A DNA stretch of 41,706 bases from Bacteroidota bacterium (GTDB lineage Bacteria > Bacteroidota > Bacteroidia > Bacteroidales > VadinHA17): the NCBI GenBank assembly GCA_025350595.1, contig JANXXP010000197.1:1-41706 (forward strand), read 5' to 3'. The position numbers were made by a program, and so were the translations under genes. Shown here piece after piece: positions 201-38,284 of this stretch (its first letter is position 1; each line of letters begins with the position of its first letter). The notes below the pieces were generated by a model. It ran no database searches, was not told the origin of the DNA, and saw nothing but the letters and a program-made list of their open reading frames with translations.

Positions 201-3152
201 TTATTTTTTTATTGAGTCGTAGATCGCCTGCAGTATCTCCGACCTGATATTAAGGTCAGATACCAGGTTATTATTCCTGGTTGGATAAACCCTGTTGCAT
301 AAGAAAACATATGAAATTTCCGATACCGGATCAACCCAGACAAATGTGCCGGTATATCCAGAGTGACCAAAACTTTGAGGTGATGCGCTTCTTGTTGGAT
401 AGGTGTCTTTTTGAGCAAGCTCAGAGTTATCCAGAAGTGGTTTATCGAAACCCAGACCTCTTCGATTTTTATTTTCCGGAAACTGAACCTTTGTATAGTC
501 TTCCATAACATTTCTTCCAATCAGCTGTTCCCCTCCATATTCTCCCATTCTGCGATATAGCTCCATCAGTTTCATCAGGTCGTTTGCTGTCGCGAAAAGT
601 CCTGCATGACCTGATATTCCACCTAACATAGCAGCACCTTCATCGTGAACAGTTCCATGCAAAAGCTGTTTTCTGAAGAGAGAATCATATTCAGTGGGAA
701 CAATTCTGCTTAACGGGTATTTCAGATATGGATTGAAACCGATATCATAAGCGCCGATCTTTTTATAAATACTGTCAGTAACAAAATTGTACCATTTCTG
801 TCCGGTCAGATTTTCAATTATTTGTGGTGCAATAATGAAGGTCAGATCTGAGTAAACATATTTCTTTTCACCCAAAGGACTCTTCTTAATCTCATTGAAC
901 ATCTTCTTCCTGTAATTCTTATTGATATAGAGCCCCTGCGCTACCTCAATAGGATATTTCTTTGTTAATTGATAATCAAATGTATTGCGTTTGAATTTTT
1001 TATCCTTCTTAATTGTCTCTTTCCAGAATGGGATGAATGGTGTAAGTCCTGCCTGATGGGTAAGGAAATCTTTCATTCCAATATTCCCCTTGTTCGTTTT
1101 TTTGAAATCAGGAAGATAAAACCCCAGAGTTTTGTCAGGTGAGAACTTTCCTTCTGTATTCAGAAGCATTAATCCGGCCAGAGTGGAAGATATCTTGGTA
1201 ACAGAGGCAAGATCATACAAATCATCCTCGTTTACCGCAATACGGTTATCATAGGTTTGATATCCATATGCTTTATGGAAAATTACAACCCCTTTCCTTG
1301 CTGCAACAACCACACACCCCGGGAATGCTTTATTTGTGAGACCTATGTTTACAATAGAGTCAATCTTTGTATTAAGCAGGTCTGATACCATACCTGCATT
1401 TTCAGGTAAACCATATTGAAGCCTGATATTCCCTGTGGTTGAGATCCCAAAATTATATGGCCATTTTTCATTTATTGTTACCGGAAGGGATCCCTGGGCG
1501 CCTATGCCTCCGAAAATCAGCTGAGCTGAAAGATCTTCAGTATAATTGTTCTCCTGATAGGCAAGGACAAGCCCATCAGTGTTCCTCAATGATTCAATCT
1601 TATCAATTCCATAGGGATTTCCAAACCAGACAATCAATGTTTTCTTATTACTCACAAGTTTGTCGATGAAATGAATTAATTCTGGTTCAATTCCGAACCC
1701 CATATTCGGTCGCTGATCCAAACCAAAAACTCCGGCAATGACAATATCATAATCTGAGAGTTTCTTCATTAATTTATGGCTGGCTGATGTATCTGAGGGA
1801 TTAAGAAAAAAGTTGTCAGCAGGATGATATTTGGAAATTCTTTCCTGAAAAAGAGAGATTTTATTTCTGTTCAGTGAAATGGTTGCAATCTTAATATTCT
1901 GAAAATATTTCAGTGGCAATATATTCTGCTTGTTATTCAGAACCGTCAGAGCATTTGCATATAACTCCCTTATAAGAGCCTGGGTAGCGAATGGTGATAA
2001 TTCTTTATCAATATTCTCTTTGTCAATAGCTTGAACCCTATTTAGTCCAGCCCAATATTTCAATGCAAGGATTTTTCTGCATTTTACTGAAATATCCTCC
2101 TTGGTCAGTCTTTTCGCTGCAATGTAAATTTTTGTTTCTCTGATGGCCGCATCCACGTCTTCAACAAATTCAACCACATCGTTCCCTGCAAGCAAGGCCC
2201 TCGCATCTGCTCCACCTGTAGGAAAAAACTTTGTAACTCCTTTCATCATCATAGCATCAGTAATAACTATTCCTTTAAATCTGAGTTCATTTTTAAGCAG
2301 CCCGTTGATAATTACAGGTGAAAGGGTGGAAGGAAGATTTGATGATGTGTCAAGTGAAGGGAGATTAAGGTGAGCGGTCATTATACTTCCGATACCTTCA
2401 CCAATGAGTTTTTTGAAGGGATAAAGTTCTATACTGTCAAGCCTCTGCCTGGAATGGGTGATTATTGGCAGATCAAGATGAGAGTCAGTTTTGGTATCTC
2501 CGTGACCTGGAAAATGTTTGGCAGTAGCAATAATGCCATTATCCTGCATCCCCTGCATGTACATGTGAGTTTTTATTGCAACTTTTTCTCTGTTCTCACC
2601 AAAAGAACGGTAATTAATGACCGGATTCTGTGGATTGATATTGATATCTGCAACAGGCGCAAGGTTCATTTGCATTCCAAGCCTTTTGAACTGCAAGGCA
2701 ACATCTTTGCCTAACTGATAAATCAATGAATCATATTTTATTGCACCAAGTGTCATCTGGTAAGGAAATTTTTCAACGTTATCCAGTCGCATACCAACTC
2801 CCCACTCCGCATCAAGGGTGAAGAGCAATGGAACCTTTGAGATTTTCTGGTAGTAGTTAATTAATTCAGACTCTTTTGCAGCTGTCCCCTGAAAGAATAC
2901 AATACCTCCAATCCCATATTTCCTTATAAGATCAGTTATCTCCACCTCATGAGATATATCTCTGTTTGAATAGCCGGCAACCCATATACATTGCGCAATC
3001 TGTTGATCTGTCGATAGAGTTTTCATCACTGAATCTACCCATGGGTGATTCATGTATTTCAGAAATGGAGGATCGATAGTTTGTGATTTTGCATTAATTG
3101 AAATAATGCTGAGAATAACAATAAGAATAGTTTTATTAAGCTTATGAAACAT
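201..3152 (-). CDS. nagZ: Exported NagZ-like beta-N-acetylglucosaminidase fused to a beta-lactamase-fold serine hydrolase
   Basis: This 983-residue two-domain protein begins with a signal peptide (about residues 1-23, ending AKSQ). Residues about 30-570 are a GH3 glucosaminidase. KHFPGHGDTKTDSH at 212-225 is the NagZ signature that carries the catalytic His, and D299 in VITDAMM matches the GH3 nucleophile. Residues about 590-983 have the class C beta-lactamase/DD-peptidase layout: SVTK (S650, K653), YSD (767-769) in place of YxN, and HSG (930-932) in place of KTG. The glucosaminidase would remove GlcNAc from muropeptides. The second domain could be a peptidase, amidase or esterase, and its substrate cannot be read from the sequence. 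It is the last gene of the leftward run, 11 nt after murQ. The exported location is inferred from the leader; E. coli NagZ is cytoplasmic. I do not call it antibiotic resistance. Confidence 0.93.
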   Translation of the reverse strand: MFHKLNKTILIVILSIISINAKSQTIDPPFLKYMNHPWVDSVMKTLSTDQQIAQCIWVAGYSNRDISHEVEITDLIRKYGIGGIVFFQGTAAKESELINYYQKISKVPLLFTLDAEWGVGMRLDNVEKFPYQMTLGAIKYDSLIYQLGKDVALQFKRLGMQMNLAPVADININPQNPVINYRSFGENREKVAIKTHMYMQGMQDNGIIATAKHFPGHGDTKTDSHLDLPIITHSRQRLDSIELYPFKKLIGEGIGSIMTAHLNLPSLDTSSNLPSTLSPVIINGLLKNELRFKGIVITDAMMMKGVTKFFPTGGADARALLAGNDVVEFVEDVDAAIRETKIYIAAKRLTKEDISVKCRKILALKYWAGLNRVQAIDKENIDKELSPFATQALIRELYANALTVLNNKQNILPLKYFQNIKIATISLNRNKISLFQERISKYHPADNFFLNPSDTSASHKLMKKLSDYDIVIAGVFGLDQRPNMGFGIEPELIHFIDKLVSNKKTLIVWFGNPYGIDKIESLRNTDGLVLAYQENNYTEDLSAQLIFGGIGAQGSLPVTINEKWPYNFGISTTGNIRLQYGLPENAGMVSDLLNTKIDSIVNIGLTNKAFPGCVVVAARKGVVIFHKAYGYQTYDNRIAVNEDDLYDLASVTKISSTLAGLMLLNTEGKFSPDKTLGFYLPDFKKTNKGNIGMKDFLTHQAGLTPFIPFWKETIKKDKKFKRNTFDYQLTKKYPIEVAQGLYINKNYRKKMFNEIKKSPLGEKKYVYSDLTFIIAPQIIENLTGQKWYNFVTDSIYKKIGAYDIGFNPYLKYPLSRIVPTEYDSLFRKQLLHGTVHDEGAAMLGGISGHAGLFATANDLMKLMELYRRMGEYGGEQLIGRNVMEDYTKVQFPENKNRRGLGFDKPLLDNSELAQKDTYPTRSASPQSFGHSGYTGTFVWVDPVSEISYVFLCNRVYPTRNNNLVSDLNIRSEILQAIYDSIKK

Positions 3153-3163
3153 ATCTTCTTAGT

Positions 3164-4027
3164 TTATTTTTTGAGATTTTCTTTATAATATTCAAGTGCC
3201 TTTTTAACAGAACCATGTTCAATTAGTAACGACCTTGCATCTTCCTTTGCAATGCTAAGTTCATCTACAATCATCCTGGTACCGCGTTCAATAAGCTTTT
3301 TATTTGTGAGCTGCATGTTGATCATCCTGTTTCCTTTAACCCTTCCAAGCTGTATCATCACAGTTGTGGTAATCATATTAAGAACCATTTTCTGAGCAGT
3401 TCCTGCTTTAAGTCTGGAACTTCCGGTCACGAACTCAGGACCAACTACAACCACTATGGGACAATCAGTTAATTCAATGATTTTCCCAACGGGGTTGCAA
3501 GTGATACAACCGGTTAGTATGCCGTTTTCCCCCGCTTTTTTAATACCTCCCAGTACATATGGAGTTGTTCCTGAAGCGGCTATTCCAATTACGGTATCGT
3601 TTGAGTTAATGTTAAATACTTCGAGTTCCTTCCAGGCTTTTTCAGGGTCATCTTCGGCAGCTTCGACAGATTTTCTGAGAGCTGTATCGCCGCCAGCTAT
3701 AAGTCCTATAACCATCGTCGCTGGTACACCGAACGTCGGAGGGACCTCAGAAGCATCAAGAACCCCAAGCCTTCCACTTGTGCCTGCGCCAAGATAGAAA
3801 ATACGTCCTCCTTTCTGCATTCGTTCAACTATTCCGGTTATCAGCTTTTCAATCTGCGGAAGAGCTTCTTTTACAGCTAAATGAACTTTTGAATCTTCCG
3901 TGTTAATATTGGTAAGTAGTTCTTTGACACTCATTTTCTCAAGATTGTCAAAATTCGATGATGACTCCGTAATACTTATGATCTGTTTATTCTTTTCAGA
4001 TTCGTTCATTATTTCTTTATTAGTCAT
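3164..4027 (-). CDS. murQ: N-acetylmuramic acid 6-phosphate etherase MurQ
   Basis: MurQ splits the lactyl ether of MurNAc-6-phosphate to give GlcNAc-6-phosphate and D-lactate in the cytoplasm. The 287-residue length is close to the usual size of about 300. The SIS-domain signature GAGTSGRLGVLDASE lies at about 80-94 and includes the conserved Glu (E94) before PPTFG; a second acidic stretch, EAAEDDPEKAW, follows near 122. The chosen ATG overlaps the end of the upstream kinase by 8 nt (ATGACTAATAAAG), which indicates translational coupling; a start six codons later (MNESEKN) is also possible. The kinase-MurQ pairing resembles the MurNAc catabolic operons described in Tannerella, as I recall them. 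Confidence 0.97.
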   Translation of the reverse strand: MTNKEIMNESEKNKQIISITESSSNFDNLEKMSVKELLTNINTEDSKVHLAVKEALPQIEKLITGIVERMQKGGRIFYLGAGTSGRLGVLDASEVPPTFGVPATMVIGLIAGGDTALRKSVEAAEDDPEKAWKELEVFNINSNDTVIGIAASGTTPYVLGGIKKAGENGILTGCITCNPVGKIIELTDCPIVVVVGPEFVTGSSRLKAGTAQKMVLNMITTTVMIQLGRVKGNRMINMQLTNKKLIERGTRMIVDELSIAKEDARSLLIEHGSVKKALEYYKENLKK

Positions 4028-4862
4028 TCGTCATGTGATAGCTGATCAGATGTTCCATAGGAGACTGGGTAATTTCTCCGGATTGTAGGTCGTGCCTTAG
4101 CAATAACTCTTCCAGGTATGGTCTGAAATGAAATGCGATGCTTCCAGTGAAATGAATTGGTAATTCTTTTGCCTCAGGATATTGCAGGATGTTCCTTTTA
4201 ATAAATTCATCAAAACTAGATGTGACTATATACTGTAGTTCAGGGATATCTATATTGTCAGAAATAAATTTTGCAAACTGACCAAGAAACCTGTTTGGGA
4301 AAGGCTTCAAATATACATTCTCAAGAATTTCTGAGGCAGTCAACTTATAGGTTTCAAAAAAGCTGTCTATTACTCTCTGTGGAACCTGCTTTTTCAATAC
4401 ACCGGAGACAAGTTTTCTGCCTAGTACTGCTCCGCCTCCTTCATCTCCCAGGATATAACCCAATGGGGCAACATTCGATTTGATAGCTTTTCCATTGTAA
4501 TAGCATGAGTTGGAACCGGTACCAATTATACAGGCTATCCCTGGTTTATTCTGGCATAGAGAACGGGCTGCTCCAAACAAATCACTTCCAATGAATATTT
4601 CTTCGGCTGAAAAAAAGCGTTTAAGAGCCTGCTTTACACTGTTCTTTTTAAAATCGCTGTTGCAGCCCGAACCATAAAAATATATTTTGCTAAACGAATA
4701 TCCCGACAATAAAATCAACTCGTTTTTCAGCAGACTATTGGTTTCCTCGACTGTAAGGAAATAAGGATTTATTCCGGAAGTGAATTTTGACTCACTGGCA
4801 ATTCCATCCTTTAATATCTGCCACTCTGTTTTAGTCGATCCGCTGTCAGCAATGAGTATCAT
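4020..4862 (-). CDS. BadF/BadG-family amino-sugar kinase (GlcNAc/MurNAc kinase, MurK-like)
   Basis: The 280-residue protein has the ASKHA-fold ATPase signatures of the BadF/BadG/BcrA/BcrD kinase group: ADSGSTKTEW at 5-14 (phosphate 1 loop), GSDLFGAAR around 92-100 with the likely catalytic Asp94, GTGSNS at 114-119 and GDEGGGAVLGRK at 139-150. Relatives phosphorylate GlcNAc or MurNAc at O-6. It heads the leftward run and overlaps murQ by 8 nt, so MurNAc is the natural guess, giving MurNAc-6-phosphate for MurQ. Whether it prefers MurNAc, GlcNAc or both cannot be read from the sequence. A TATTTTTG -7 box lies 19 nt before the start codon. Confidence 0.88.
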   Translation of the reverse strand: MILIADSGSTKTEWQILKDGIASESKFTSGINPYFLTVEETNSLLKNELILLSGYSFSKIYFYGSGCNSDFKKNSVKQALKRFFSAEEIFIGSDLFGAARSLCQNKPGIACIIGTGSNSCYYNGKAIKSNVAPLGYILGDEGGGAVLGRKLVSGVLKKQVPQRVIDSFFETYKLTASEILENVYLKPFPNRFLGQFAKFISDNIDIPELQYIVTSSFDEFIKRNILQYPEAKELPIHFTGSIAFHFRPYLEELLLRHDLQSGEITQSPMEHLISYHMTND

Positions 4863-4880
4863 GATCTTTTAAGTTGAGTA

Positions 4881-4888
4881 CAAAAATA
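4881..4888 (-). promoter_or_regulatory. Probable -7 box for the kinase-murQ-nagZ run
   Basis: The minus strand reads TATTTTTG, an exact match to the Bacteroidota TAnnTTTG -7 element. It would start the transcript roughly 10-15 nt before the ATG at 4862. I see no TTTG or TTG at the expected -33 distance, so support rests on the -7 box and its position. Confidence 0.5.
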
Positions 4889-4930
4889 AATATTAAGTAA
4901 CTAATCAGTAATTAAAGTGAGCTAAAGTTT

Positions 4931-5072
4931 AGAGTGCCTAAAGTTAAAGAATCAAGTGGTATTAACAATTTTCCCTTGATGTCAATGTTTTTTGTTTTGG
5001 TTTTGAGTTTTTTTTTGAAAAGTAACTCTAATAACTTAAGGCATTCTAGGCACTCTGGATACTTTAGGCACT
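4931..5072. repeat. Inverted AGTGCCTAAAGT repeat in the divergent spacer
   Basis: AGTGCCTAAAGT at 4933-4944 is perfectly inverted as ACTTTAGGCACT at 5061-5072. The overlapping AGAGTGCCTA at 4931-4940 is also inverted as TAGGCACTCT at 5047-5056, so the right side carries two offset copies. The centre is about 100 bp of T-rich sequence. It resembles low-complexity intergenic repeats rather than a protein-binding operator. Confidence 0.7.
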
Positions 5073-5120
5073 TTATTTATGATGTTTATTGAAATATGTC
5101 TGACAAATTTTAATATTCCG

Positions 5121-5128
5121 TATCTTTA
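5121..5128 (+). promoter_or_regulatory. Possible -7 box for the NagB-fusion operon
   Basis: TATCTTTA matches TAnnTTTG at all positions except the last and lies 85 nt before the start at 5214. No clear -33 TTG is present. An identical TATCTTTA occurs before the DHH phosphoesterase at 36144-36151. Confidence 0.35.
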
Positions 5129-5213
5129 CATCTTTGAGGGGGGCTGAGGTGGGTTTCTGAGTTATTAAATATTGAAGTTGAGATCTGTTTATAAGCTATA
5201 TTAATAATTAAAT

Positions 5214-7535
5214 ATGAATACCAACACGTTATCTAAAGTTGAAAAGGTGTATTTCTCTAACTCAGGAAGGAAGAGTTATTCCACGAAAATGCCTTACATC
5301 GTTGTTCAGAATTTTCCTGATCTGGGTTTACTTACTTCACTCAGATTCCTTGAATGGGTGGCAGAAAATCCGGAAGGGGTAATAAGTCTGCCTACTGGTA
5401 AAACACCTGAGTACTTTATTAAATGGACACAAAAACTACTTTCAGGTTGGGACAAGCCGGAGAATAGAAGCCTGATGGAAAAAAACGGACTCTTTATAGC
5501 TAAAAAACCATCATTAAAAGGATTGCATTTTGTTCAGATTGATGAGTTTTATCCAATAAATCCAAAGCAGCATAACAGTTTCTATGATTATGTAATAAAT
5601 TACTACATTAAGGGATTTGATCTTGACCCTTCCAGAGCTCTGCTCATAAATTGCGATGAGATTAGTTTGCCAAATGGAAGGCATTATTCCGAGGTTTTTC
5701 CTGACAGTATTATTGATCTATCTCTGAGAAACAGAGAGGCTGTAAGTCAGTTTGAAAAAAATCAGCAGGCATCTTTGTTCAGCATCGATAACTGGTGCTC
5801 GGATTATGAGAATAAGATCAGAGATATGGGAGGGATTGGTTTTTTTCTTGGAGGTATGGGCCCTGACGGGCATATTGCCTTTAATACACGGGGAAGCGAT
5901 CATAATTCAACTACACGTCTCACCGCAACCAATTTCGAAACCCAGGCTGCTGCTGCCGGTGACCTAGGAGGCATTGAAGTTTCAAGGACAAGACTTGTTA
6001 TTACTATCGGTCTCGGTACAATAACTCATAACAGGGATGGGGTCTCTATATTGTTTGCTGCAGGGGAAGCAAAAGCGCCCGTTGTAAGAAACGCTCTTGA
6101 AAATAAACCTGATAACATGTATCCGGCTACTGTACTTCAGCGACAGAAAAACTCAAGGTTTTATCTTACTGAAGGAGCTGCAGTTTTGCTTCATGACAGC
6201 ATTGAAAAGTACTACCGGGATGGAGACTGGTGTTTTGAAAAAACAGAAAAGGCGGTTTTTGATTTGTGTCAGAGAATTGACAAGTATGCACATAAGCTTG
6301 TAATTGAAGATTTGAAAAACGATAAGTACTGTTCACTAATACCCGATTTGAGCCTGGCGAGAGTGAATGAAGTTATTCAATCGACCCGGACAAAAATGGA
6401 GCTTGGTCTTAAAAAAGAGAGCGACCAGACATTTCTGCATACTGGTCCACATCACGACGACATTATGCTTGGTATATTTCCTTGCATAATACCAACACTT
6501 CGGGTTCAATCTAATAAGTTCCACTTCTCAGTTTTAACATCAGGCTTTACCGCAGTTACAAACATCATGCTGCAGAACCTTATGCAGGAGACTTTAAACC
6601 TTATTAACCAGGGGAAAATAGGAATGCTGAAATATCCTGATTTCTTTGAGCAGGGATATAAGTATAAATTTGATAAGGATGTAAGCCATTATCTCGATAA
6701 AATTGCTGCACGGGATGAACCCGGTAAATTAAGGGGAATCTGTCATAGAATGACACGTGTTATGGTAGACATCTATAATCTGAAATCAATACAGCAATTG
6801 ACAGATCAGATAGAAAAGAATATTGAGCTGCTGAAATCTAGCTACAGCGGAGAGAAAAATCCGCCCGATATTCAGAAGTTAAAAGGGATGCTCCGTGAGT
6901 TTGAGGAAGAACTGGTTTGGGCACACTATGGAGTAAAAGTGCAGAATATCGAACATCTTCGTTTAGGATTTTATACAGGCGATATCTTTACTCCGCAGCC
7001 TGAAAGAAACCGCGATGTTGAGCCGGTCTATGAGATGTTGAAACGAATTCAGCCTACTGTGATCAGTCTTGCTTTTGATCCGGAGGGGTCGGGTCCCGAT
7101 ACTCACTACAAAGTGCTTCAGGCAATTGCTGAAGCTTTGCGTAAATGGAGTAAAGAAAAGGACTTATCGGAAATCAGAATTATCGGATACAGAAATGTAT
7201 GGTATAAATTTCATCCTTCCGAAGCCAATGTATTTACTCCGGTATCACTGAATTCAATGGCTGTGCTTAACTGGTCATTCAAAAACTGTTATATAAGTCA
7301 GGTCGATGCTTCATTTCCAAGCTATGAGCTCGACGGACCATTCAGTGACTTGTCACAACAGATTTGGGTAGAGCAGTTTAAAAAGGTACAGCTTATTTTG
7401 GGAAAAGATTTCTTCTACGAAAATGATAGTCCAAAAATTCGTTGCACTCACGGAATGATATACCATAAAGAGATGAAACTTGATGAGTTCCTGTTACATG
7501 CACGCGAACTTGAAAAAAGTATGGAAGGGGTCTAG
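5214..7535 (+). CDS. nagB: NagB-like glucosamine-6-phosphate deaminase fused to a PIG-L/LmbE deacetylase domain
   Basis: This 773-residue fusion joins two enzymes of amino-sugar catabolism. Residues about 30-340 are a NagB isomerase/deaminase domain: SLPTGKTP at 58-65, VQIDEFYP around 107-114 (D110 corresponds to the E. coli NagB base) and GGMGPDGHIAFN at 213-224 (D218, H220). Residues about 400-770 are a PIG-L/LmbE zinc-deacetylase fold: TGPHHDDIMLG at 410-420 stands in for the usual AHPDDE, keeping one His and both Asp (H413, D415, D416), and SGPDTHY with H631 supplies the third metal ligand. An insertion of roughly 150 residues separates the two halves of the metal site. Known chemistry predicts GlcN-6-phosphate to fructose-6-phosphate plus ammonia for the first domain; the second may remove the N-acetyl group of GlcNAc-6-phosphate, replacing NagA. 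It heads the rightward salvage run. Confidence 0.9.
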   Translation: MNTNTLSKVEKVYFSNSGRKSYSTKMPYIVVQNFPDLGLLTSLRFLEWVAENPEGVISLPTGKTPEYFIKWTQKLLSGWDKPENRSLMEKNGLFIAKKPSLKGLHFVQIDEFYPINPKQHNSFYDYVINYYIKGFDLDPSRALLINCDEISLPNGRHYSEVFPDSIIDLSLRNREAVSQFEKNQQASLFSIDNWCSDYENKIRDMGGIGFFLGGMGPDGHIAFNTRGSDHNSTTRLTATNFETQAAAAGDLGGIEVSRTRLVITIGLGTITHNRDGVSILFAAGEAKAPVVRNALENKPDNMYPATVLQRQKNSRFYLTEGAAVLLHDSIEKYYRDGDWCFEKTEKAVFDLCQRIDKYAHKLVIEDLKNDKYCSLIPDLSLARVNEVIQSTRTKMELGLKKESDQTFLHTGPHHDDIMLGIFPCIIPTLRVQSNKFHFSVLTSGFTAVTNIMLQNLMQETLNLINQGKIGMLKYPDFFEQGYKYKFDKDVSHYLDKIAARDEPGKLRGICHRMTRVMVDIYNLKSIQQLTDQIEKNIELLKSSYSGEKNPPDIQKLKGMLREFEEELVWAHYGVKVQNIEHLRLGFYTGDIFTPQPERNRDVEPVYEMLKRIQPTVISLAFDPEGSGPDTHYKVLQAIAEALRKWSKEKDLSEIRIIGYRNVWYKFHPSEANVFTPVSLNSMAVLNWSFKNCYISQVDASFPSYELDGPFSDLSQQIWVEQFKKVQLILGKDFFYENDSPKIRCTHGMIYHKEMKLDEFLLHARELEKSMEGV

Positions 7536-7569
7536 ATACCAGGGAGCTAATTTATTCTTTAACAATAGT

Positions 7570-8751
7570 ATGAAATTTTGGATAGTCTTAATATCATCTC
7601 TTTTGATATCCGGGTGCAAACAGCCTGGAGTTCCCGTTTCCTTGCAGAACGGATTAGATTCAATAGCCGTCAAGTGGGTTCCTGATGAAAGAGAAGGAAT
7701 CTGCAGCTTCAACATTCAAATGGTATCGAAAGATCTGGTTTTACTTAAGGGTGAAACTAATTTGCCTGAGGCTAAGAAAGAATTCATAAAATACCTTGAC
7801 GGATCAGGGTTCAGCATCGCTGACAGTCTTAAAGTGATACCTGATCCCTTAAAAATCAAAAAAACATGGGGCTTAGTTACGGTTAGTGTCAGTAATATTA
7901 AGAAACTTCCATCTCATGCCAGCGAACTGGTATCTCAGGCTATTATGGGCACTCCGGTAAAAATATTAAAGAAGAAAGAGGACTGGTTACTTGTACAGAC
8001 TCCTGATTATTACATTGGATGGGTTGATGACAGTGGTATCAGCGAAATGACTGATGAACAAATTCTAGCATGGAAACAATCTGACCGAATTATTTACACA
8101 TATAAATCAGGCGATATTATCTCGGAAACAAATGAAAATGAGGTTGTTTCAGATATTGTCGCAGGGGCAATTTTGCAAACATTATCTCAAAAGGGAAACT
8201 ATTTCATCGTGGTGCTTCCAGATGGAAGACGGGGTAAGGTTGCAAAAAATGAAGCAGCCGGTTTTTTACAGTGGTGTTCATCAATCACTCCTCTGGCAGT
8301 GAAAATGACTGCCTTTGGAAGATCCTTTCTGGGTTCACCATATTTATGGGGCGGCACATCAACCAAAGCTCCTGACTGTAGTGGATTTGTAAAGACTGTT
8401 TATTTTACTGGGGGTATCATTCTCGCACGCGACGCCTCATTGCAATTCCTTCATGGACAACCCGTTGATATCTCAGGGTCATTTAATAAACTTGAGCCAG
8501 GAGATCTACTCTTCTTCGGTCATTACAGCAAGGGTGTGAAACGAATAACACATGTAGGTTTATATATCGGGAATTCGCAGATTATTCATTCATCAGGAAT
8601 GGTGAGAATAAACAGCCTTGACTCAATCAGGGCAGACTATAGCAGTCATCTAAAGGAAACAATTCTTGGTGCCAGAAGAATAATTGGAACAACTTCAGAA
8701 AAAGGGATTGAGCGTGTTTCAGTCAATAGTTGGTACAATGTTATTAATTGA
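7570..8751 (+). CDS. NlpC/P60 cysteine peptidase lipoprotein with SH3-like segments
   Basis: The start is set at the ATG at 7570, 34 nt after the previous stop, because it opens a lipoprotein signal peptide with lipobox LISGC (Cys16). A longer frame reaches back into nagB but has no sensible leader. The mature 378-residue protein has two bacterial SH3-like segments (about 100-155 and 170-230) and a C-terminal NlpC/P60 domain with the Cys-His-His triad: C270 in PDCSGF, H328 in THVGLYIG and H340 in QIIHSSG. This layout matches YkfC-type gamma-D-glutamyl-diamino acid endopeptidases, which free L-Ala-D-Glu from muropeptides. The dipeptide epimerase next door fits that product. Expected location: membrane-anchored, facing the periplasm. 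Confidence 0.93.
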   Translation: MKFWIVLISSLLISGCKQPGVPVSLQNGLDSIAVKWVPDEREGICSFNIQMVSKDLVLLKGETNLPEAKKEFIKYLDGSGFSIADSLKVIPDPLKIKKTWGLVTVSVSNIKKLPSHASELVSQAIMGTPVKILKKKEDWLLVQTPDYYIGWVDDSGISEMTDEQILAWKQSDRIIYTYKSGDIISETNENEVVSDIVAGAILQTLSQKGNYFIVVLPDGRRGKVAKNEAAGFLQWCSSITPLAVKMTAFGRSFLGSPYLWGGTSTKAPDCSGFVKTVYFTGGIILARDASLQFLHGQPVDISGSFNKLEPGDLLFFGHYSKGVKRITHVGLYIGNSQIIHSSGMVRINSLDSIRADYSSHLKETILGARRIIGTTSEKGIERVSVNSWYNVIN

Positions 8752-8810
8752 TTTTTAGCTTTTTTAGCACTGCGCCCTAAAGGGTAAAAGCCAAAAATCT
8801 ATACGATACA

Positions 8811-8843
8811 AAAGTCCCCATTAGGGGATTAGGGGCAAAAAAA
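8811..8843 (+). repeat. Copy 1 of a short intergenic hairpin repeat
   Basis: AAGTCCCCATTAGGGGATT followed by AGGGGCAAAA forms a TCCCC-ATTA-GGGGA hairpin and matches the copies near 14651, 14698, 33660 and 35567. A degenerate CCCTAAAGGG unit lies just before it at 8775-8784. Both fall in the 134-bp gap between the NlpC/P60 gene and the epimerase. Confidence 0.75.
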
Positions 8844-8885
8844 TACGGAGCTTGGTCTACTATTATTAATTTATGTCTTGAATTT

Positions 8886-10037
8886 ATGCATAAACGAGAA
8901 TTTATTAAATACGGAGGTCTTCTTGCTGGTGCCATGATTGCCGGAAATTCTAAAATATTTTCAAAGGGCACTGAAATAAAATCAAATCCCGTGAATCTGA
9001 AAGGAGCCACTATGAAGTTAAAATTTTTACCTTATGATCTCCAGTTGAAGCATGTATTTACCATCTCATCAAATTCACGTACCTCAACACCTGTAGTACT
9101 TACTGAAATAGAGTACGATGGTGTTAAAGGATATGGGGAAGCTTCAATGCCTCCTTACCTTGGTGAAAGTCATGAAACTGCTCTCAAATTTCTTGCTCAG
9201 GTCAATCTTGCTCAATTTAAAGATCCATTTCTGTTAGAGGATATTCTTCTCTATGTAGATAAAATCACACCGGGTAATTATGCAGCGAAAGCATCAGTTG
9301 ATATAGCTCTTCACGATTTGTCAGGGAAACTCATTGGGAAACCCTGGTATCAGCTTTGGGGACTTGATCCTGCAAAAACCCCAAATACCAGTTTTACAAT
9401 AGGTATTGATACGCCTGAAGTTGTAAGGCAGAAGGTAACTGAAGCTGCTCCATATAAAGTACTGAAGGTAAAACTTGGAAGTGCCGGTGATAAAGAGATG
9501 ATAAATACCATCAGAACAGTTTCTGATAAACCAATTTGTGTTGATGTAAATCAGGGCTGGAAAGATAAAAATTATGCACTTGAAATGGCAAACTGGCTGA
9601 AAGATAAAAATGTAGTTTTCATTGAACAACCAATGCCTAAAAAACAGACTGATGATATAGGATGGCTTACTCAGAACTCTCCTTTACCAATTATTGCGGA
9701 TGAGGCCATGCAAACAATAGAGGATTTGATGAATATAAAAGGTCTATATTCAGGTGTAAATATTAAACTTATGAAATGCGGTGGGATGAATGCTGCTTAT
9801 AAGATTGCTCAGATGGCTCTGGCAATGAATATGAAGGTTATGATTGGCTGTATGACTGAGACATCATGTGCAATTTCAGCAGCAGCTCAGCTTTCTCCTT
9901 TGGCAAAATGGGCCGACCTCGATGGTAATTTACTGATTACTAACGACTACTATGATGGCGTTACTGTGATGGATGGAAAGATCATTTTAAATGACAGGCC
10001 CGGAATTGGAATCAAAGAAAAAATAAAAGTATGGTAA
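8886..10037 (+). CDS. Dipeptide epimerase (L-Ala-D/L-Glu epimerase type, enolase superfamily) with a Tat-like leader
   Basis: The 383-residue protein has the full muconate-lactonising subgroup active site: KVK at 194-196 (catalytic K194/K196), metal ligands D220 (ICVD), E247 (FIEQP) and D272 (IADEA), and K294 (NIKLMK). L-Ala-D/L-Glu epimerases of this group convert the murein dipeptide L-Ala-D-Glu to L-Ala-L-Glu so that ordinary peptidases can use it. The adjacent NlpC/P60 peptidase would supply the substrate. The N-terminus KREFIKYGGLLAGAMIAG resembles a twin-arginine leader with Lys-Arg; the enzyme core begins near the second Met (MKLKFLPYD, residue 43). Either export or a cytoplasmic start at about 9012 is possible. 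The exact dipeptide preferred is inferred from context. Confidence 0.9.
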   Translation: MHKREFIKYGGLLAGAMIAGNSKIFSKGTEIKSNPVNLKGATMKLKFLPYDLQLKHVFTISSNSRTSTPVVLTEIEYDGVKGYGEASMPPYLGESHETALKFLAQVNLAQFKDPFLLEDILLYVDKITPGNYAAKASVDIALHDLSGKLIGKPWYQLWGLDPAKTPNTSFTIGIDTPEVVRQKVTEAAPYKVLKVKLGSAGDKEMINTIRTVSDKPICVDVNQGWKDKNYALEMANWLKDKNVVFIEQPMPKKQTDDIGWLTQNSPLPIIADEAMQTIEDLMNIKGLYSGVNIKLMKCGGMNAAYKIAQMALAMNMKVMIGCMTETSCAISAAAQLSPLAKWADLDGNLLITNDYYDGVTVMDGKIILNDRPGIGIKEKIKVW

Positions 10038-11143
10038 AAAACAGCAGTGGCAGGCTGGTTTCCCTCGATATCTTCAGGGGGCTGACAGTCGCTTTTATGA
10101 TAATTGTAAACACTCCCGGCAGCTGGAATTATATTTATCCTCCCCTGGAACATTCCAAATGGCACGGATGCACACCGACTGATTTAGTTTTTCCGTTTTT
10201 CCTGTTTATTGTTGGTGTTTCTATGTGGTTCTCTTTTAAAAAGTATGGACATGAAATAACCGGAGGATCTATCCTAAGGATACTTAGACGGATGGTTGCG
10301 ATATTTGCAGTAGGTATTTTCCTCGCCATTTTTCCTCTTTTCGGAAGAGATTATTCTACCCTTCGGATAATGGGTGTTCTTCAGCGAATTGCCCTGGCAT
10401 ATGGAATCGGTGCAATTCTTTGTCTTATTATTAGTCGTAGCTATTTATGGATTGTGATAGTATTTATCCTCCTGCTTTATTGGGCACTCCTTGCTTTTTT
10501 CGGTGGAGCCGACCCATACAGCCTTACCGGAAACCTTTCCCTTAAAGTCGATCCTGCAATCCTTGGTGCAAATCATCTTTACAAAGGTTTTGGAATTCCT
10601 TTTGATCCGGAAGGTTTGTTAAGCACTCTTCCTTCTATTGCTACAGTCATTATTGGATATTATATCGGGGAACTTGTAGGGAACGGGTCACCTTCAGGCA
10701 AGACTTTTGTGTTGCTTGTTTTGTTTGGTGCTGCCTCATTTGGTCTGGGATATTTGTGGGGTATGGTATTCCCGATAAATAAACCATTATGGACGAGCTC
10801 ATACGTTCTATATACTGCTGGTTTGGCTATGGGAGTTTTGGCATTTATCTATCTCCTGGCTGATTTATGGAAATTCAGCATCTGGGGTGTCTTTTTCCTT
10901 ATTTTTGGTACTAATGCAATATTCTCATATTTTTTATCCGGGATATGGACACGACTCATGCTATTCATAACTATTCCATCGGGAAGCAGTAAAATAACGC
11001 TCTATACCTGGATTTATGAAAAGATTTGTGTTCCGGTTGCTGGTAATCTGAATGGGAGCCTTATGTTTGCAATAATTCAGATGCTGTTGATTTGGGGAAT
11101 AGCACTGTTGCTGTATAGGAAGAAGATAATGATCAGGTTATAA
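10031..11143 (+). CDS. NagX/DUF5009-type multispan membrane protein (candidate amino-sugar transporter)
   Basis: The 370-residue protein has about ten hydrophobic segments and the family signature near its N-terminus: SLDIFRGLTVAFMI, then EHSKWHGCTPTDLVFPFFLF (residues 40-59), with conserved H41, H45 and D51. The family is related to the human lysosomal heparan-alpha-glucosaminide acetyltransferase. Bacterial relatives called NagX, and as I recall MurT of Tannerella, sit in GlcNAc or MurNAc operons and are proposed inner-membrane sugar importers. It overlaps the epimerase by 7 nt, so it is part of the salvage operon. Import of MurNAc/GlcNAc is the best guess; transmembrane acetylation is the alternative. 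Confidence 0.8.
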   Translation: MVKNSSGRLVSLDIFRGLTVAFMIIVNTPGSWNYIYPPLEHSKWHGCTPTDLVFPFFLFIVGVSMWFSFKKYGHEITGGSILRILRRMVAIFAVGIFLAIFPLFGRDYSTLRIMGVLQRIALAYGIGAILCLIISRSYLWIVIVFILLLYWALLAFFGGADPYSLTGNLSLKVDPAILGANHLYKGFGIPFDPEGLLSTLPSIATVIIGYYIGELVGNGSPSGKTFVLLVLFGAASFGLGYLWGMVFPINKPLWTSSYVLYTAGLAMGVLAFIYLLADLWKFSIWGVFFLIFGTNAIFSYFLSGIWTRLMLFITIPSGSSKITLYTWIYEKICVPVAGNLNGSLMFAIIQMLLIWGIALLLYRKKIMIRL

Positions 11144-11148
11144 GGTCT

Positions 11149-11234
11149 CTGCTGGCGCGGATTTGAAATCACTGCCTTAAGCAATTGTAATCCGAACTTT
11201 ATTATAGGCACCGATTACAAATTGGCGCCAGCGA
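11149..11234. repeat. REP-like imperfect palindrome with nested arms
   Basis: The outer arms GCTGGCGCGGATTTG (11151-11165) and CAAATTGGCGCCAGC (11218-11232) pair over 15 bp with two mismatches. An inner pair, CAATTGTAATC and GATTACAAATTG, is nested within and differs by one indel. The whole unit fills the gap between the transporter and amgK. It has the look of a REP-type or MITE-like element. I cannot see target-site duplications or a coding part. Confidence 0.7.
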
Positions 11235-11254
11235 AGGATGAAATTAAACAAATT

Positions 11255-11284
11255 ACCCCTCCCCTTGGGGGCTGGGAGGTAAAA
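11255..11284 (+). repeat. Hairpin repeat, GGGGG subtype
   Basis: CCCCTCCCCTTGGGGGCTGG followed by GAGGTAAAA closely matches the copy at 35639-35667. It lies 36 nt before the amgK start, right after the larger palindrome. Confidence 0.55.
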
Positions 11285-11320
11285 TTAAGGAAGAAAGATT
11301 AAATAATATAAGCATTTTTC

Positions 11321-12352
11321 ATGACTGAAATCGACATTGTATCAGCTGGATACAAAAATATATTTGGGGATTCGGATATTAAAATAGAGGCATTGCCTAA
11401 ATCAGGTTCCGACAGAATGTACTTTAGAATTTTCGATAGAAAAAAAACTGTTATTGGAGCTTTTAATGCAAATCTTGAAGAGAATGAAGCATTTGTTGGG
11501 TTTACAAAGCACTTTTTAAAACAGAGACTTCCTGTACCTGAGATTTTTGGCTATAAACCTGATGAATTTATCTATTTTCTTAAAGATCTTGGCGATAATA
11601 ATCTGTATACCTGGCTTCATAACAAGAAAGATATTTCATTATTCGATGCAGAAACCAAACGCCTTTACAGGAAGATTCTTGATAAATTAATTCTGTTTCA
11701 GATTAAAGGGATAGATGGTTTGAATCTCGATCTCTGCTACCCGCACAAAAGTTTCGACCGTCAATCGATGATGTGGGATATGAATTATTTCAAATATATG
11801 TTATTAAAACTTCTCGCTGTTCCATTCAGTGAAAGACAGCTTGAACGTGATTTCAATACCTTATGCGATTATTTGCTCGAAACCGGTCAGGATTATTTTC
11901 TCTACCGTGATTTCCAGACTGCTAACATAATGGTGGTCGGGGAGGAGCCGTGGTTCATTGATTATCAGGGAGGAAGAAAGGGTGCTCCTCAGTATGATGT
12001 TGCATCACTTTTATACGATGCAAAGATCCCAATGTCAGAAGTTGACAGGGAAGAACTTCTGGAGTATTATATTAATAGTTTCTGCTCAGTTTCACACGAA
12101 GATAAGCAGAAATTCAGGGGATATTATTCAGGATTCAGCATGATAAGGTTGATGCAGGCACTTGGAGCATTTGGATTCAGAGGATTATATGAACAAAAAC
12201 CAACTTTCACCGAAAGCATAGTGCCTGGGGTAAATATTCTTCTCCGGATAATAACATCAGCGGAAAGCCATATTAATATTCCGGAACTTTTCAAGACAAT
12301 CAGGGCAATTCCTGATTCTCCTAAGTTTATAGGACTCACTTTGAAAAAATAG
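11321..12352 (+). CDS. amgK: AmgK-like anomeric kinase for MurNAc/GlcNAc (aminoglycoside phosphotransferase fold)
   Basis: This 343-residue protein has the choline/aminoglycoside kinase fold. The catalytic loop YRDFQTANIM has D197 and N202 but Tyr where most members have His, and the metal site is WFIDYQGG with D214, followed by GAPQYDVASLLYD. That pattern (DYQG, QYDVASLL) is characteristic of AmgK-type enzymes, which phosphorylate MurNAc or GlcNAc at C-1. The length equals that of the Pseudomonas enzyme, from memory. The MurU-like gene follows 11 nt later, which is the diagnostic pairing and makes a true aminoglycoside resistance kinase unlikely. Together they would make UDP-MurNAc from salvaged MurNAc and bypass MurA/MurB. 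Confidence 0.88.
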   Translation: MTEIDIVSAGYKNIFGDSDIKIEALPKSGSDRMYFRIFDRKKTVIGAFNANLEENEAFVGFTKHFLKQRLPVPEIFGYKPDEFIYFLKDLGDNNLYTWLHNKKDISLFDAETKRLYRKILDKLILFQIKGIDGLNLDLCYPHKSFDRQSMMWDMNYFKYMLLKLLAVPFSERQLERDFNTLCDYLLETGQDYFLYRDFQTANIMVVGEEPWFIDYQGGRKGAPQYDVASLLYDAKIPMSEVDREELLEYYINSFCSVSHEDKQKFRGYYSGFSMIRLMQALGAFGFRGLYEQKPTFTESIVPGVNILLRIITSAESHINIPELFKTIRAIPDSPKFIGLTLKK

Positions 12353-12363
12353 AAAGCTGACTA

Positions 12364-13077
12364 ATGAAAGCAATGATTCTTGCAGCCGGAAAGGGAACCA
12401 GACTGGGTAAAATTACAGAAAGTATGCCAAAGGCGCTAGTTGAAGTCAATGGAAAAACAGCTCTTCACTATGCAGTTGAGAAATGTACCAAACATGGTTT
12501 TGACAACATTATAATAAACGTTCACCATTTTGCAGAAATGGTTGAAGAGGAGGTATCTAAACTCAAGAAAATGGGATTCAGGATTTCAGTTTCAGATGAA
12601 AGAGAAATGCTTTTAGAGACTGGAGGAGGATTATTCAAAGCCAGGGATTTTTTTGATAAAGAACCTTTTCTTGTTTACAATGTTGACATAGTAACTTCAC
12701 TTGATCTTTCAGAATTATACAGATACCACCTTGAAAAGAAAGGGCTTGCAACACTTGCTGTCAGAAAACGTCCCGGGAAGAGATTTTACCTTGTAAACAA
12801 TTCCGGAAGGTTGTGTGGATGGAGAAATATAGAAACAAAGGAAGAAATACTATCAGTAAAAACATCTGAAGATCTTCATGAAATAGCTTTTTCAAGTATG
12901 CACATATTGGAACCTGAGATTTTTAAATATATGAATGAAGGAATCTATACCATGACCGATCTTTATCTAAAACTGGCAGGTGATCACAATATTTTTACCT
13001 TCAGGGACGATTCAGGTTACTGGGGCGATATTGGTACTCCGGAGACATTGGAATATGTGAGGAACCTGTTTACTTAA
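12364..13077 (+). CDS. murU: MurU-like MurNAc-1-phosphate uridylyltransferase
   Basis: The 237-residue protein is a single-domain sugar-1-phosphate nucleotidyltransferase. The N-terminal signature AMILAAGKGTRL (3-14) followed by MPKALVEVNGK (about 21-31) is the nucleotide-binding loop and the PKxL/V motif. NVDIVTS (about 115) has the metal-binding Asp, and GYWGDIGTPETLEYV near the end is typical of the family. No hexapeptide acetyltransferase domain is attached, so it is not GlmU. Placed 11 nt after the AmgK-like kinase, it is best read as MurU, forming UDP-MurNAc. Its stop codon overlaps the convergent trkH stop in a shared TTAA. Confidence 0.9.
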   Translation: MKAMILAAGKGTRLGKITESMPKALVEVNGKTALHYAVEKCTKHGFDNIIINVHHFAEMVEEEVSKLKKMGFRISVSDEREMLLETGGGLFKARDFFDKEPFLVYNVDIVTSLDLSELYRYHLEKKGLATLAVRKRPGKRFYLVNNSGRLCGWRNIETKEEILSVKTSEDLHEIAFSSMHILEPEIFKYMNEGIYTMTDLYLKLAGDHNIFTFRDDSGYWGDIGTPETLEYVRNLFT

Positions 13078-14519
13078 AGTTTCCAGAAAGTTCTGGTAAA
13101 TATGGCGAAGACAGTAATAATCTCAAGCCTTCCCACGATCATCAGCAAACTCAAAACCAGCTTGGTGATCTCAGGTAAACCTGCAAATGTGCTCATCGGA
13201 CCGACGGTTCCTAATCCGGGACCTATACCGGCCATACATGTTGCCACAGAGCTTGCGGCGGAAACAGGATCGACACCTGTTATTACAACGATAATTGTAC
13301 CAAGTACAAAAAGGAACAGGTACAAAACAACAAATGAAAGAATCGAGATGTTGGTATTTTCACTGACACTCTTCCCATTTAATTTGATAAATGAAATTGA
13401 ATTTGGGTGATTAAGTTTTATGAAAACGTTCTTGATATTTTTAAGTATAATTAAATGTCTTCCCATCTTAATACCGCCGCTTGTTGAACCTGTACTTCCT
13501 CCTGCAAACATGACAAGAAATATTAGTAAGATGCCAGCCAGGGGCCAGGCTAAATAGTTTGATGATGCGTATCCGGTACAGGTAATTATTGATATTATCT
13601 GGAAAAAACCTTCACGAAACGATTCCTCAAATGATCTGGTTGAATTAACAAGAAGCACTATAGTTGCTATTGCTCCTGTAATCAATATCACAATAACATA
13701 GAACCACAATTCTTCATTTTGCTTTACCTTCTTGAAGTTAAATTTCACGATGTAGTAATAAATCACCTGACTTGTACCGGCCATGAACATAAATATCATA
13801 ACAATATATTGACTGTAAGCCGAGTAGGCCATCAGGTTGTTGTTTCTGGTTGAAAACCCTCCTGTAGCTACGGTTCCAAAAGAATGACAGACACTGTCAA
13901 ACAGATTCATATCGCCGATATTCAGAAGTACTATTTCGGCAAGAGTAAGGCCAAGGTAGATAAACAGAATCCTGAATACTATCGCTTTGGTTTTCGGATG
14001 GATCTTTTCTCTCAACGAAGATTCCAGACTGAATAATTGATATCCGGTTACCCTTAGAGTAGGCAGGATTATTAGAAGCAGAACTATGATCCCGATCCCC
14101 CCAATCCAATGTGTGAGACTCCGCCAGAAAAGTATTGAAAAAGGAAGTATTTCAACATTTTTTATGATCGTGGAACCAGTGGTGGAAAATCCGGATGTGG
14201 ATTCAAAAAATGCATCAGTAAATGATGGAATGGCATTACTTAACAGATAGGGCAAAGTTCCTATCAGCGAAAAGACAATCCATGATAGTGTGACTGCCAG
14301 ATATCCATCCCTGTTACTGAATTTTTCTTTATCAGCACCTATTGAAACTAAATAAAAAAGCCCTGATAACAATATAGTTGCAGCAGCGGACCATAAAAAT
14401 GGTGAAGGAGACTCGTTGTACATAAATACAACCGGAAGACAAAATAAAAACGAAAGTGTTTCTATAAGCAAAACAGTACTTAGTATCCGGAGAATTAACA
14501 AAGGATTTATCAGCTTCAT
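13074..14519 (-). CDS. trkH: TrkH/KtrB-type potassium uptake membrane subunit
   Basis: The 481-residue membrane protein shows the four pore-loop repeats of the Trk/Ktr family: GFSTTGSTI, ATGGFSTRN, TCTGYASSN and AGIGPGLGTVG, each with the filter glycine. The SGLFYLVSIGA-type N-terminal segments give two extra helices, as in TrkH rather than the shorter KtrB. It moves potassium across the inner membrane and normally needs a TrkA/KtrA cytoplasmic partner, which is not in this window. It is unrelated to the convergent murU. A TATATTTG box on the minus strand at 14546-14553 would start transcription about 20 nt before the ATG. Confidence 0.96.
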   Translation of the reverse strand: MKLINPLLILRILSTVLLIETLSFLFCLPVVFMYNESPSPFLWSAAATILLSGLFYLVSIGADKEKFSNRDGYLAVTLSWIVFSLIGTLPYLLSNAIPSFTDAFFESTSGFSTTGSTIIKNVEILPFSILFWRSLTHWIGGIGIIVLLLIILPTLRVTGYQLFSLESSLREKIHPKTKAIVFRILFIYLGLTLAEIVLLNIGDMNLFDSVCHSFGTVATGGFSTRNNNLMAYSAYSQYIVMIFMFMAGTSQVIYYYIVKFNFKKVKQNEELWFYVIVILITGAIATIVLLVNSTRSFEESFREGFFQIISIITCTGYASSNYLAWPLAGILLIFLVMFAGGSTGSTSGGIKMGRHLIILKNIKNVFIKLNHPNSISFIKLNGKSVSENTNISILSFVVLYLFLFVLGTIIVVITGVDPVSAASSVATCMAGIGPGLGTVGPMSTFAGLPEITKLVLSLLMIVGRLEIITVFAIFTRTFWKL

Positions 14520-16042: not shown

Positions 16043-16067
16043 CCTCACACCTCACTACACACACCTC

Positions 16068-26063: not shown

Positions 26064-26076
26064 GTAGTAAGAAAAA

Positions 26077-37789: not shown

Positions 37790-38284
37790 ATGAAAAATAG
37801 TATCCGAACATTTTTATTCTCTGTCATCACAATTCTTTTGATCATGCTTGTTTCATGCAATCCTGCTGCAAAATATGAGAAAGCCGAAGCTTCAGAAATT
37901 CAGGATTATCTTAGTAAAAACTCGAATTTATTGTTTGTAAAGAAAACAAGCGGTTTATACTTTCTTGATGTTACAGTTGGTACAGGCAGAGTGCCTATTA
38001 ACAAAGATACTGTCTGGGTAAAATACACCGGGAAATTTCTGAACGGAACAACATTTGACACCAATGTTGGCACTTCTGATTCCCTTAAGTTTCCTGTTTA
38101 TCAGGGTTATATGATTTACGGAATTGAAGAGGGAATCTCCTATATGAAAGAAGGTGGAAAATCGATGCTGGTTATACCATCCAGCATGGCTTATGGCACA
38201 ATGGGCTTTAATATAATTCCTGGTTATACTCCTTTGTTATTTGAATTGGAACTTGTTAAAGTAAAAGCAGGCCCGGGAAAATAG
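37790..38284 (+). CDS. FKBP-type peptidyl-prolyl isomerase lipoprotein
   Basis: The 164-residue protein has a lipoprotein signal peptide (lipobox MLVSC, Cys23) and a single FKBP domain: SGLYFLDVTVGTGR, VWVKYTGKFLNGTTFDTN with the conserved Tyr and FD pocket, GIEEGISYMKEGGKSMLVIP and AYGTMGF. It would assist proline isomerisation of envelope proteins. It is a paralogue of the preceding gene, 63 nt downstream, and ends 2 bp from the convergent methyltransferase. Confidence 0.92.
   Translation: MKNSIRTFLFSVITILLIMLVSCNPAAKYEKAEASEIQDYLSKNSNLLFVKKTSGLYFLDVTVGTGRVPINKDTVWVKYTGKFLNGTTFDTNVGTSDSLKFPVYQGYMIYGIEEGISYMKEGGKSMLVIPSSMAYGTMGFNIIPGYTPLLFELELVKVKAGPGK

Follow-up and report, generated by a model that had tools for sequence, protein, structure and literature searches.

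The 41,706-bp window analysed here is the whole of one contig (C122) of a Bacteroidota genome from the family VadinHA17, whose assembly comprises 4.3 Mb in 396 contigs and is 98.2% complete. Nine genes at 201-13077 form two divergent runs flanking a spacer (4863-5213), and a preliminary description of this island was borne out in both the open reading frame positions and the spacer length of exactly 351 bp. The minus strand carries a fusion of a NagZ-like GH3 glucosaminidase with a beta-lactamase-fold (AmiE/PBP4B-like) domain (201-3152), the N-acetylmuramic acid (MurNAc)-6-phosphate etherase MurQ (3164-4027) and a MurK-type sugar 6-kinase (4020-4862). The plus strand carries an atypical protein with NagB-like and PIG-L-like domains (5214-7535), an NlpC/P60 endopeptidase with an SH3 domain (7570-8751), a dipeptide epimerase of the L-Ala-D/L-Glu type and the enolase superfamily (8886-10037), a NagX-like membrane protein (10031-11143), an AmgK-like sugar 1-kinase lacking a RapZ C-terminal domain (RapZ_C; 11321-12352) and a MurU-like uridylyltransferase (12364-13077). 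Gaps within the runs range from an 8-bp overlap, between the kinase gene and murQ, up to 177 bp. All nine genes recur in a congener (G307; G and L are our handles for genomes and fetched stretches) in identical order within each half, at 62.6-80.6% identity and with the halves about 14 kb apart, so the arrangement exceeds what chance would produce. The island is probably a murein-sugar salvage cluster that branches at free MurNAc. Two findings are new here: AmgK and MurQ stand as a divergent pair in this family, and AmgK relatives bear a RapZ domain that the genus of the window has mostly lost.

MurQ is the sole island protein above an NCBIfam cut-off among the matches listed (for NagZ and MurU, the best 25 families), and it clears both curated models, TIGR00274 (303.5 bits, cut-off 302) and PRK05441 (364.1 bits, cut-off 168). 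Because the AmgK, MurU, NagX, NagB and NagZ homologues fall below their NCBIfam cut-offs, we name them with the suffix '-like'. The NagZ fusion passes Pfam GH3 (PF00933, E-value 3.2e-68, 230.9 bits against a cut-off of 27) and scores 134.2 bits against the NagZ-type model NF003740, below its cut-off of 207; the second half has a beta-lactamase fold (PF00144, E 4.6e-42), with PBP4B as its top NCBIfam match (141.4 bits, cut-off 385). The fusion contains the candidate catalytic motifs KHFPGHG at residue 212, SVTK at 650, YSD at 767 and GHSG at 929, and a signal-like N-terminal stretch gives it the look of a secreted protein. The kinase, for which a Pfam search at an E-value of 0.001 gave no match, aligns with the solved structures 1zbs (E 7.2e-83), 8oqw (E 6e-71) and 8ow9 (E 1.9e-70; 'putative novel MurNAc kinase'), and its solved relatives comprise the MurNAc kinases of Tannerella forsythia plus two proteins from structural genomics. 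Residues T94, S133, P134 and L135 of T. forsythia MurK are described as giving space for the lactyl group (PMC10465942; papers cited by PMC number are cited from excerpts), and the equivalents here are S93, A132, P133 and L134, that is, two identical residues and two small replacements. Given these structural relatives and the small residues kept in the lactyl pocket, the island kinase is likely a MurNAc 6-kinase.

The AmgK-like gene ends 11 bp ahead of the MurU-like gene, which in turn overlaps the convergent TrkH gene (13074-14519) by 4 bp. In the AmgK-like protein R196, D197, N202 and D214 are invariant in all 11 aligned sequences, and we take this RD....N pattern with its later Asp to be the catalytic residues of the aminoglycoside phosphotransferase (APH) type. 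The MurU-like protein keeps its motifs; its best match in the PDB is 4y7t (E 1.2e-21), presumably a MurU, and the second, 8hhd, bears the MurU name. Across 80 AmgK loci from named genomes, which are those kept out of at least 592 stretches (at least 584 relatives), a MurU gene lies on the same strand within 1.5 kb of AmgK in 56. The nearest named AmgK relatives among the matches listed belong to metagenome-assembled genomes (MAGs) of Bacteroidales, and 'fen' is part of the isolate name of three of these. The window organism also has murA (437 bits, cut-off 392.7), so the re-use branch would act as a bypass. A MurNAc auxotrophy like that of T. forsythia was considered and rejected on the strength of the same gene.

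Among the other plus-strand proteins, the NagB-like one matches PRK02122 at an E-value of 5.2e-55, yet its 186.7 bits lie under the cut-off of 384. Its NagB half keeps D72, D141 and H143, whereas at E. coli NagB Glu148 the window protein, like all six of the fetched relatives sharing its type, has Thr; we take these four positions to be the catalytic ones. Five paralogues of 630-667 residues from other genera retain Glu at the 148 position but have Thr at Asp141, and in the congener G302 (L100) the D72 and H143 positions are changed too. Pfam PIG-L does not match the window protein; hhalign comparison with a paralogue family that includes one member above the Pfam PIG-L cut-off supports a PIG-L-like half (98.0%, E 2e-13), and one relative matches PF02585 weakly (E 4.7e-4, 21.1 bits, cut-off 28.2). 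A predicted structure made with a two-row alignment was unusable (mean predicted local distance difference test, pLDDT, 33.3). The genome has a nagA on contig C3 (253.9 bits, cut-off 225.65) adjoined by a NagB-family gene, so the island protein is not required on that ground alone; for the same reason we rejected the idea that its PIG-L half replaces NagA.

The NlpC/P60 protein (PF00877, E 4e-20; SH3_16, E 2.9e-13) has what reads as a lipoprotein-like N terminus, with its start set by choice at 7570 where the mechanical open reading frame opens at 7480. The epimerase matches the DgcA model (E 1.7e-66) and the L-Ala-D/L-Glu epimerase PRK15129 (E 1.1e-48), both under cut-off. In the NagX-like protein (NF046061, 143.5 bits, cut-off 480) the presumed functional residue His41 is invariant in 9 of 9 aligned sequences. 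NagX and the T. forsythia transporter TfMurT have been called distantly related, by authors who favour an acetyltransferase role (PMC9007349), and the island protein may be a MurNAc importer of TfMurT kinship, supplying an import function for which the island has no other candidate, or an amino-sugar acetyltransferase. An AmpG-like permease of the major facilitator superfamily (MFS) found in congeners has matches at an E-value of 0.001 in 10 of the 21 genomes searched (the 21 include the window's own), and eight of these matches are below 1e-45.

The octamer TAGGCACT occurs in the divergent spacer at window positions 4933, 5047 and 5065, with one of the three copies reversed, and once more in the window at 37990; the spacer also holds a 15-nt inverted repeat pair (4930-4944 and 5061-5075). 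Of 2000 resampled spacers, 16 had three copies of some four-letter 8-mer, a frequency to be read in the light of TAGGCACT having been picked after it was noticed. None of the three copies recurs in the seven stretches from congeners, lying ahead of MurK or NagB, that were inspected alongside the 12 bp of L048, and Rfam at gathering level returned the tRNA only. The statement that no regulator is encoded beside the island agrees with the right flank, where TrkH comes next; the left flank is seen only to base 1 of the contig, and a congener (G296) does have a GntR/FCD regulator gene, which lies together with a GH18 enzyme between MurQ and NagZ (L046:14133-16384). A lactate-type regulator would fit that site, because MurQ releases D-lactate. 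In G304 and G341 (L048, L145) two genes of similar size, known by size alone, occupy the same interval. The suggestion that the switch may be metabolic is in keeping with a contig that encodes no regulator, but has to be set against the GntR/FCD gene of G296 and against the RapZ_C that AmgK relatives bear.

To place the island we considered an evenly drawn phylum sample of 296 genomes, the window's own included, and the 59 genomes of the window's family, with strong AmgK defined in the phylum as a match below 1e-50 and strong MurQ as one below 1e-40 in the phylum and below 1e-60 in the family; none of the phylum and family association statistics takes descent into account. At an E-value of 0.001 AmgK matched in 100 of the 296 genomes (30 strong) and MurQ in 292, of which 212 were strong and the weaker ones are other SIS-type matches. 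One family, f18, contributes 64 of the 296 genomes and has weaker AmgK-like matches, no strong MurQ and no RapZ_C. Both arms are commonly found together, in 17 of the 30 strong-AmgK genomes, which for this phylum sample contradicts the view that the two routes usually fall to different organisms; a positive association across the phylum was equally rejected (Fisher odds ratio 0.48, p 0.085). Within the family AmgK was found in 50 genomes, MurQ in 40 and both in 37, and wherever the two lie on one contig (18 of the 37) they are divergent, at distances of 154 bp to 21.6 kb and within 1.6 kb in 14. Since these genomes are related, 18 of 18 expresses conservation and not 18 independent events. The 13 genomes of the genus all have AmgK, and strong MurQ is found in five (the window's G000, G302, G307, G322 and G341) and missing in eight, which makes re-use the more constant of the two arms in this genus. 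As a pair, AmgK and MurQ are neither enriched in the phylum nor general in the genus.

The island itself varies among relatives. G322, of the same genus, has a compact form running MurU, AmgK, NagB/PIG-L, 153 bp, MurK, MurQ and NagZ, without NlpC, epimerase or NagX in the run. The insert of about 14 kb in G307 encodes, among the seven frames tested, an FAD/4Fe-4S oxidase, an MFS permease, a GH9 and polysaccharide deacetylase protein, a SpoIID/LytB protein, a DUF4922 protein, a glycosyltransferase and a Golvesin/amidase protein; the oxidase might be linked to the D-lactate released by MurQ. This insert resembles the T. forsythia operon, and with the MFS gene missing here the window appears as a reduced form of a known cluster type. 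In other genera of the family (L129-L136, L138, L140 and L141) MurQ is divergent from AmgK and no MurK is labelled in the fetched stretches, several of which are short. Five congeners without a clear MurQ (G303:C63, G357:C11, G366:C13, G353:C22 and G300:C235) have frames of about 520 residues that are weakly similar to MurQ (28-30% identity), perhaps double SIS proteins.

Many AmgK relatives are encoded by frames of 474-524 residues, against 346 in the window protein, and in three of four tested (the exception being L064) the extra part is a RapZ C-terminal domain (PF22740; E 1.9e-35, 9.4e-34 and 2.2e-34), which also matches the E. coli RapZ structure 5o5s (E 9.5e-15). Examples with the domain either fused to AmgK or encoded by the next gene include L055, L062, L065 and L174. 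In the phylum sample RapZ_C is present in 35 of 296 genomes, all of which have AmgK: 26 carry it in the same frame, seven in a short adjoining frame and two elsewhere. It accompanies 28 of the 30 strong AmgK genomes, the exceptions being G009 and the window genome, where the domain was found nowhere, neither on nor beside AmgK. In the family it occurs in 36 of 59 genomes, in 34 as one long frame with AmgK; in G340 and G363 it is a short frame, and the contig concerned gives no match to AmgK. AmgK is present in 35 of the 36, and in the exception, G363, only 38 bases separate the domain from the end of its contig. The 80 named-genome loci have it fused in 69, in another frame in one and lacking in 10, and include MAGs labelled Elusimicrobia, Neomarinimicrobiota and Calditrichia that may be mis-binned. 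Within the genus it is present in one of 13 genomes (G322) and missing in 12. Our literature searches for AmgK together with RapZ returned no paper, and none on such a link appeared among the matches listed by wider ones.

The history of the fusion was examined in an unrooted tree of 97 AmgK domains, chosen from 139 different sequences as the window, the loci below L149, all unfused ones and every third other named-genome locus. The window belongs to a supported group made up of 20 unfused and 10 fused rows; G322 (L127), a fused member of the genus, is placed with L224 and not with the other congeners. The fusion labels need eight changes, six of them forced by well-supported branches; some are artefacts, as the number is raised by three loci counted as unfused, of which L078 is truncated at a contig end and L019 and L209 have the domain in another frame. 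We interpret this as the domain having been lost several times, once in the bulk of the window's genus. For the fused Labilibaculum filiforme protein (L174), structure prediction was confident (mean pLDDT 91.8, predicted template modelling score 0.71), and Foldseek placed APH-type kinases first (3csv, E 9.5e-13) and RapZ 44th (5o5q, E 9.9e-8); with a root-mean-square deviation of 16.4 over 263 columns, the latter match backs the RapZ domain only roughly. Strong MurQ is present in 31 of the 35 family AmgK genomes with RapZ_C and in 4 of the 13 that have a complete AmgK but lack the domain (Fisher p 2e-4), a comparison that excludes two genomes whose AmgK is truncated at a contig end, is uncorrected for descent and rests mostly on one genus. 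In the phylum just 16 of 35 RapZ_C genomes have strong MurQ, so the domain does not need MurQ, and its company with MurQ in the family is suggestive only.

The gene content likely reflects a branch at MurNAc, with the 6-phosphate passing to MurQ and the 1-phosphate to MurU. The proposal that this lineage chooses between burning and re-using MurNAc at C-6 or C-1 agrees with that content, with the kinase relatives and with the pocket residues, but it is not new: the branch point is published for T. forsythia, where AmgK and MurU lead to UDP-MurNAc and MurK and MurQ to N-acetylglucosamine (GlcNAc)-6-phosphate (PMC7670621), and where a murK mutant routes MurNAc to the wall and grows better when MurNAc is scarce (PMC7670621; PMC5790795). 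The salvage route has been presumed in other Bacteroidetes (PMC5790795), and T. forsythia is listed among the few organisms having the MurU route (PMC13046382). In the window organism, the NagZ/beta-lactamase-fold protein would release GlcNAc and MurNAc from muropeptides outside the cytoplasm, the NlpC/P60 enzyme and the epimerase would handle the peptide, and MurNAc would enter perhaps through the NagX-like protein, whose family is said to be distantly akin to the T. forsythia transporter. By analogy with the protein families and with T. forsythia, the MurK-type kinase and MurQ would then convert MurNAc to GlcNAc-6-phosphate and D-lactate for growth, and the AmgK-like and MurU-like proteins would convert it to UDP-MurNAc for new wall. 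The split would presumably be set here by enzyme amounts and affinities; in most relatives the RapZ_C on the 1-kinase would be a likely sugar-phosphate sensor, a domain that the window's genus has mostly lost.

Several observations weigh against this salvage scheme. The AmgK-like protein scores only 47.8 bits against the curated model NF045759 (cut-off 550) and 38.9 bits against a second one (cut-off 500), the MurU-like protein reaches 134.6 bits against NF045761 (cut-off 250) and 106.7 bits against another (cut-off 370), and the NagX homologue is similarly far under its cut-off. To these are added the Thr at the NagB Glu148 position, the phylum-wide odds ratio, the eight congeners without strong MurQ, and a tentative import step: the AmpG-like MFS permease has no match in the 98.2%-complete genome, and T. 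forsythia MurT, the supposed kin of the NagX-like protein, has been assigned to a sodium symporter or MFS family (PMC5790795). The T. forsythia AmgK and MurU, moreover, are likened to the window pair by description and are at most putative orthologues. The low scores of the pair, together with an AmgK-like protein whose one strong solved relative is 3csv, a 'putative aminoglycoside phosphotransferase', would suit an activity on another sugar, such as GlcNAc-1-phosphate or a surface-glycan sugar, with no MurNAc branch at all. We regard this as unlikely, as the top NCBIfam models of the two proteins are nevertheless AmgK and MurU, the best solved relatives of the second are MurU entries, the pair is linked to MurQ and NagZ in many genera, and T. 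forsythia AmgK and MurU expressed in E. coli are described as a working labelling control (PMC13041923). It is likewise improbable that the organism only recycles its own wall, with MurQ clearing surplus MurNAc-6-phosphate and no feeding on foreign murein; the missing MFS permease and the lack of any SusC/D-type domain (Pfam) in the island proteins would fit such a role, but the NagZ fusion looks secreted and the NlpC protein lipoprotein-like, and in congeners these genes are linked with ones for SpoIID/LytB, for GH18 or GH9, for an amidase and for an FAD/4Fe-4S oxidase, much as in the muropeptide operon described for T. forsythia.

Returning to the salvage cluster and its possible control, the C-terminal domain of E. 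coli RapZ by itself binds glucosamine-6-phosphate (GlcN6P) with a KD of 10 nM by surface plasmon resonance, and 1-2 mM GlcN6P was required for a response in vitro, the high affinity being left unexplained by the authors (PMC7073468). The RapZ pocket consists of H190, T248, G249, H252 and R253 (PMC5737377). In 116 fused domains, which come from 147 loci (146 with AmgK) and are not independent, as they include some duplicate genes and near relatives, T248 is kept in 102, G249 in 114, H252 in 113 and R253 in 114, and H190 is Gly in 100, a replacement that leaves room for another ligand. E. coli RapZ is described with a 19-residue basic RNA-binding tail; past the fused domains there are 0-21 residues, averaging about one Lys or Arg, so that such a tail is missing. 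From these residues, RapZ_C on the 1-kinase is likely a metabolite sensor for GlcN6P or a similar sugar phosphate. Because GlcN6P arises both in the steps after MurQ and from GlmS, it could inform the anabolic arm of the state of the catabolic one. There is just short of an even chance that the domain is instead a dimer-forming or structural addition: the E. coli domain is described as dimerising via a YVFD strand whose Asp182 is kept in all 116, the pocket His190 is not kept, and in the phylum sample 19 of the 35 genomes with RapZ_C lack strong MurQ. The pocket is otherwise largely retained at its four remaining positions, however, a metabolite role is the simpler one remaining once the RNA-binding tail is gone, and within the family the domain accompanies MurQ.

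A sensing role would place a switch within AmgK elsewhere that may have been lost in the window organism. We propose, tentatively and at clearly less than even likelihood, that in Bacteroidota, and perhaps in some other phyla, a 1-kinase with its own GlcN6P-type sensor works as an allosteric valve, by which the hexosamine-phosphate pool, fed by MurQ where present, sets the share of MurNAc that goes to the wall. Whether MurNAc is burnt or re-used matters for how well a cell copes with blocked wall synthesis, and the literature consulted contained no account of its control at the level of an enzyme. A sensor-like domain on the re-use kinase, often beside MurQ, offers a concrete and testable control point, with lineages lacking the domain as the matching control. 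If the proposal is true, the metabolite-binding half of RapZ would gain a role without RNA, and the few members with both arms but no sensor, such as the window organism, would be a natural experiment. Elsewhere in the window, a UvrD-type helicase, a radical SAM protein and a PD-(D/E)XK nuclease are encoded consecutively at 21892-28971, perhaps as an AddAB-like pair, and saccharopine-dehydrogenase-like and decarboxylase genes at 14849-17207 may belong to a carboxynorspermidine pathway.

The closest known system is MurNAc utilisation in T. forsythia (Tanf_08345-08385: xanthan lyase, gtf, gtf, lytB, ampG, ybbC, murT, murK and murQ, plus AmgK/MurU), of whose operon the part from xanthan lyase to ampG is given in PMC5388701. 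The window shares with it a MurK-type kinase together with MurQ and both routes, here predicted ones, in one organism, and the congener G307 adds SpoIID/LytB, an MFS permease, a glycosyltransferase and an amidase-type protein before MurK. The window differs in holding the two routes in one compact divergent island without the AmpG/LytB/glycosyltransferase block before MurK, in lacking the MFS permease from its genome and in having murA, which T. forsythia lacks. As in the Pseudomonas AmgK-MurU route, the AmgK-like gene is directly followed by the MurU-like gene, whereas the window adds MurQ and its proteins are far under the curated cut-offs. The murQ-nagZ-amiE group of Bacillus subtilis, in which NagZ and a beta-lactamase-fold amidase-like protein stand beside murQ as they do here, keeps apart what the window fuses into one protein, and the window's island has no regulator or phosphotransferase system gene. 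Finally, the AmgK relatives match E. coli RapZ in their C-terminal domain (PF22740, 5o5s), but there the domain is joined to a 1-kinase in place of the RapZ N-terminal domain, has no basic tail and has His190 replaced, and the window AmgK carries no such domain at all.

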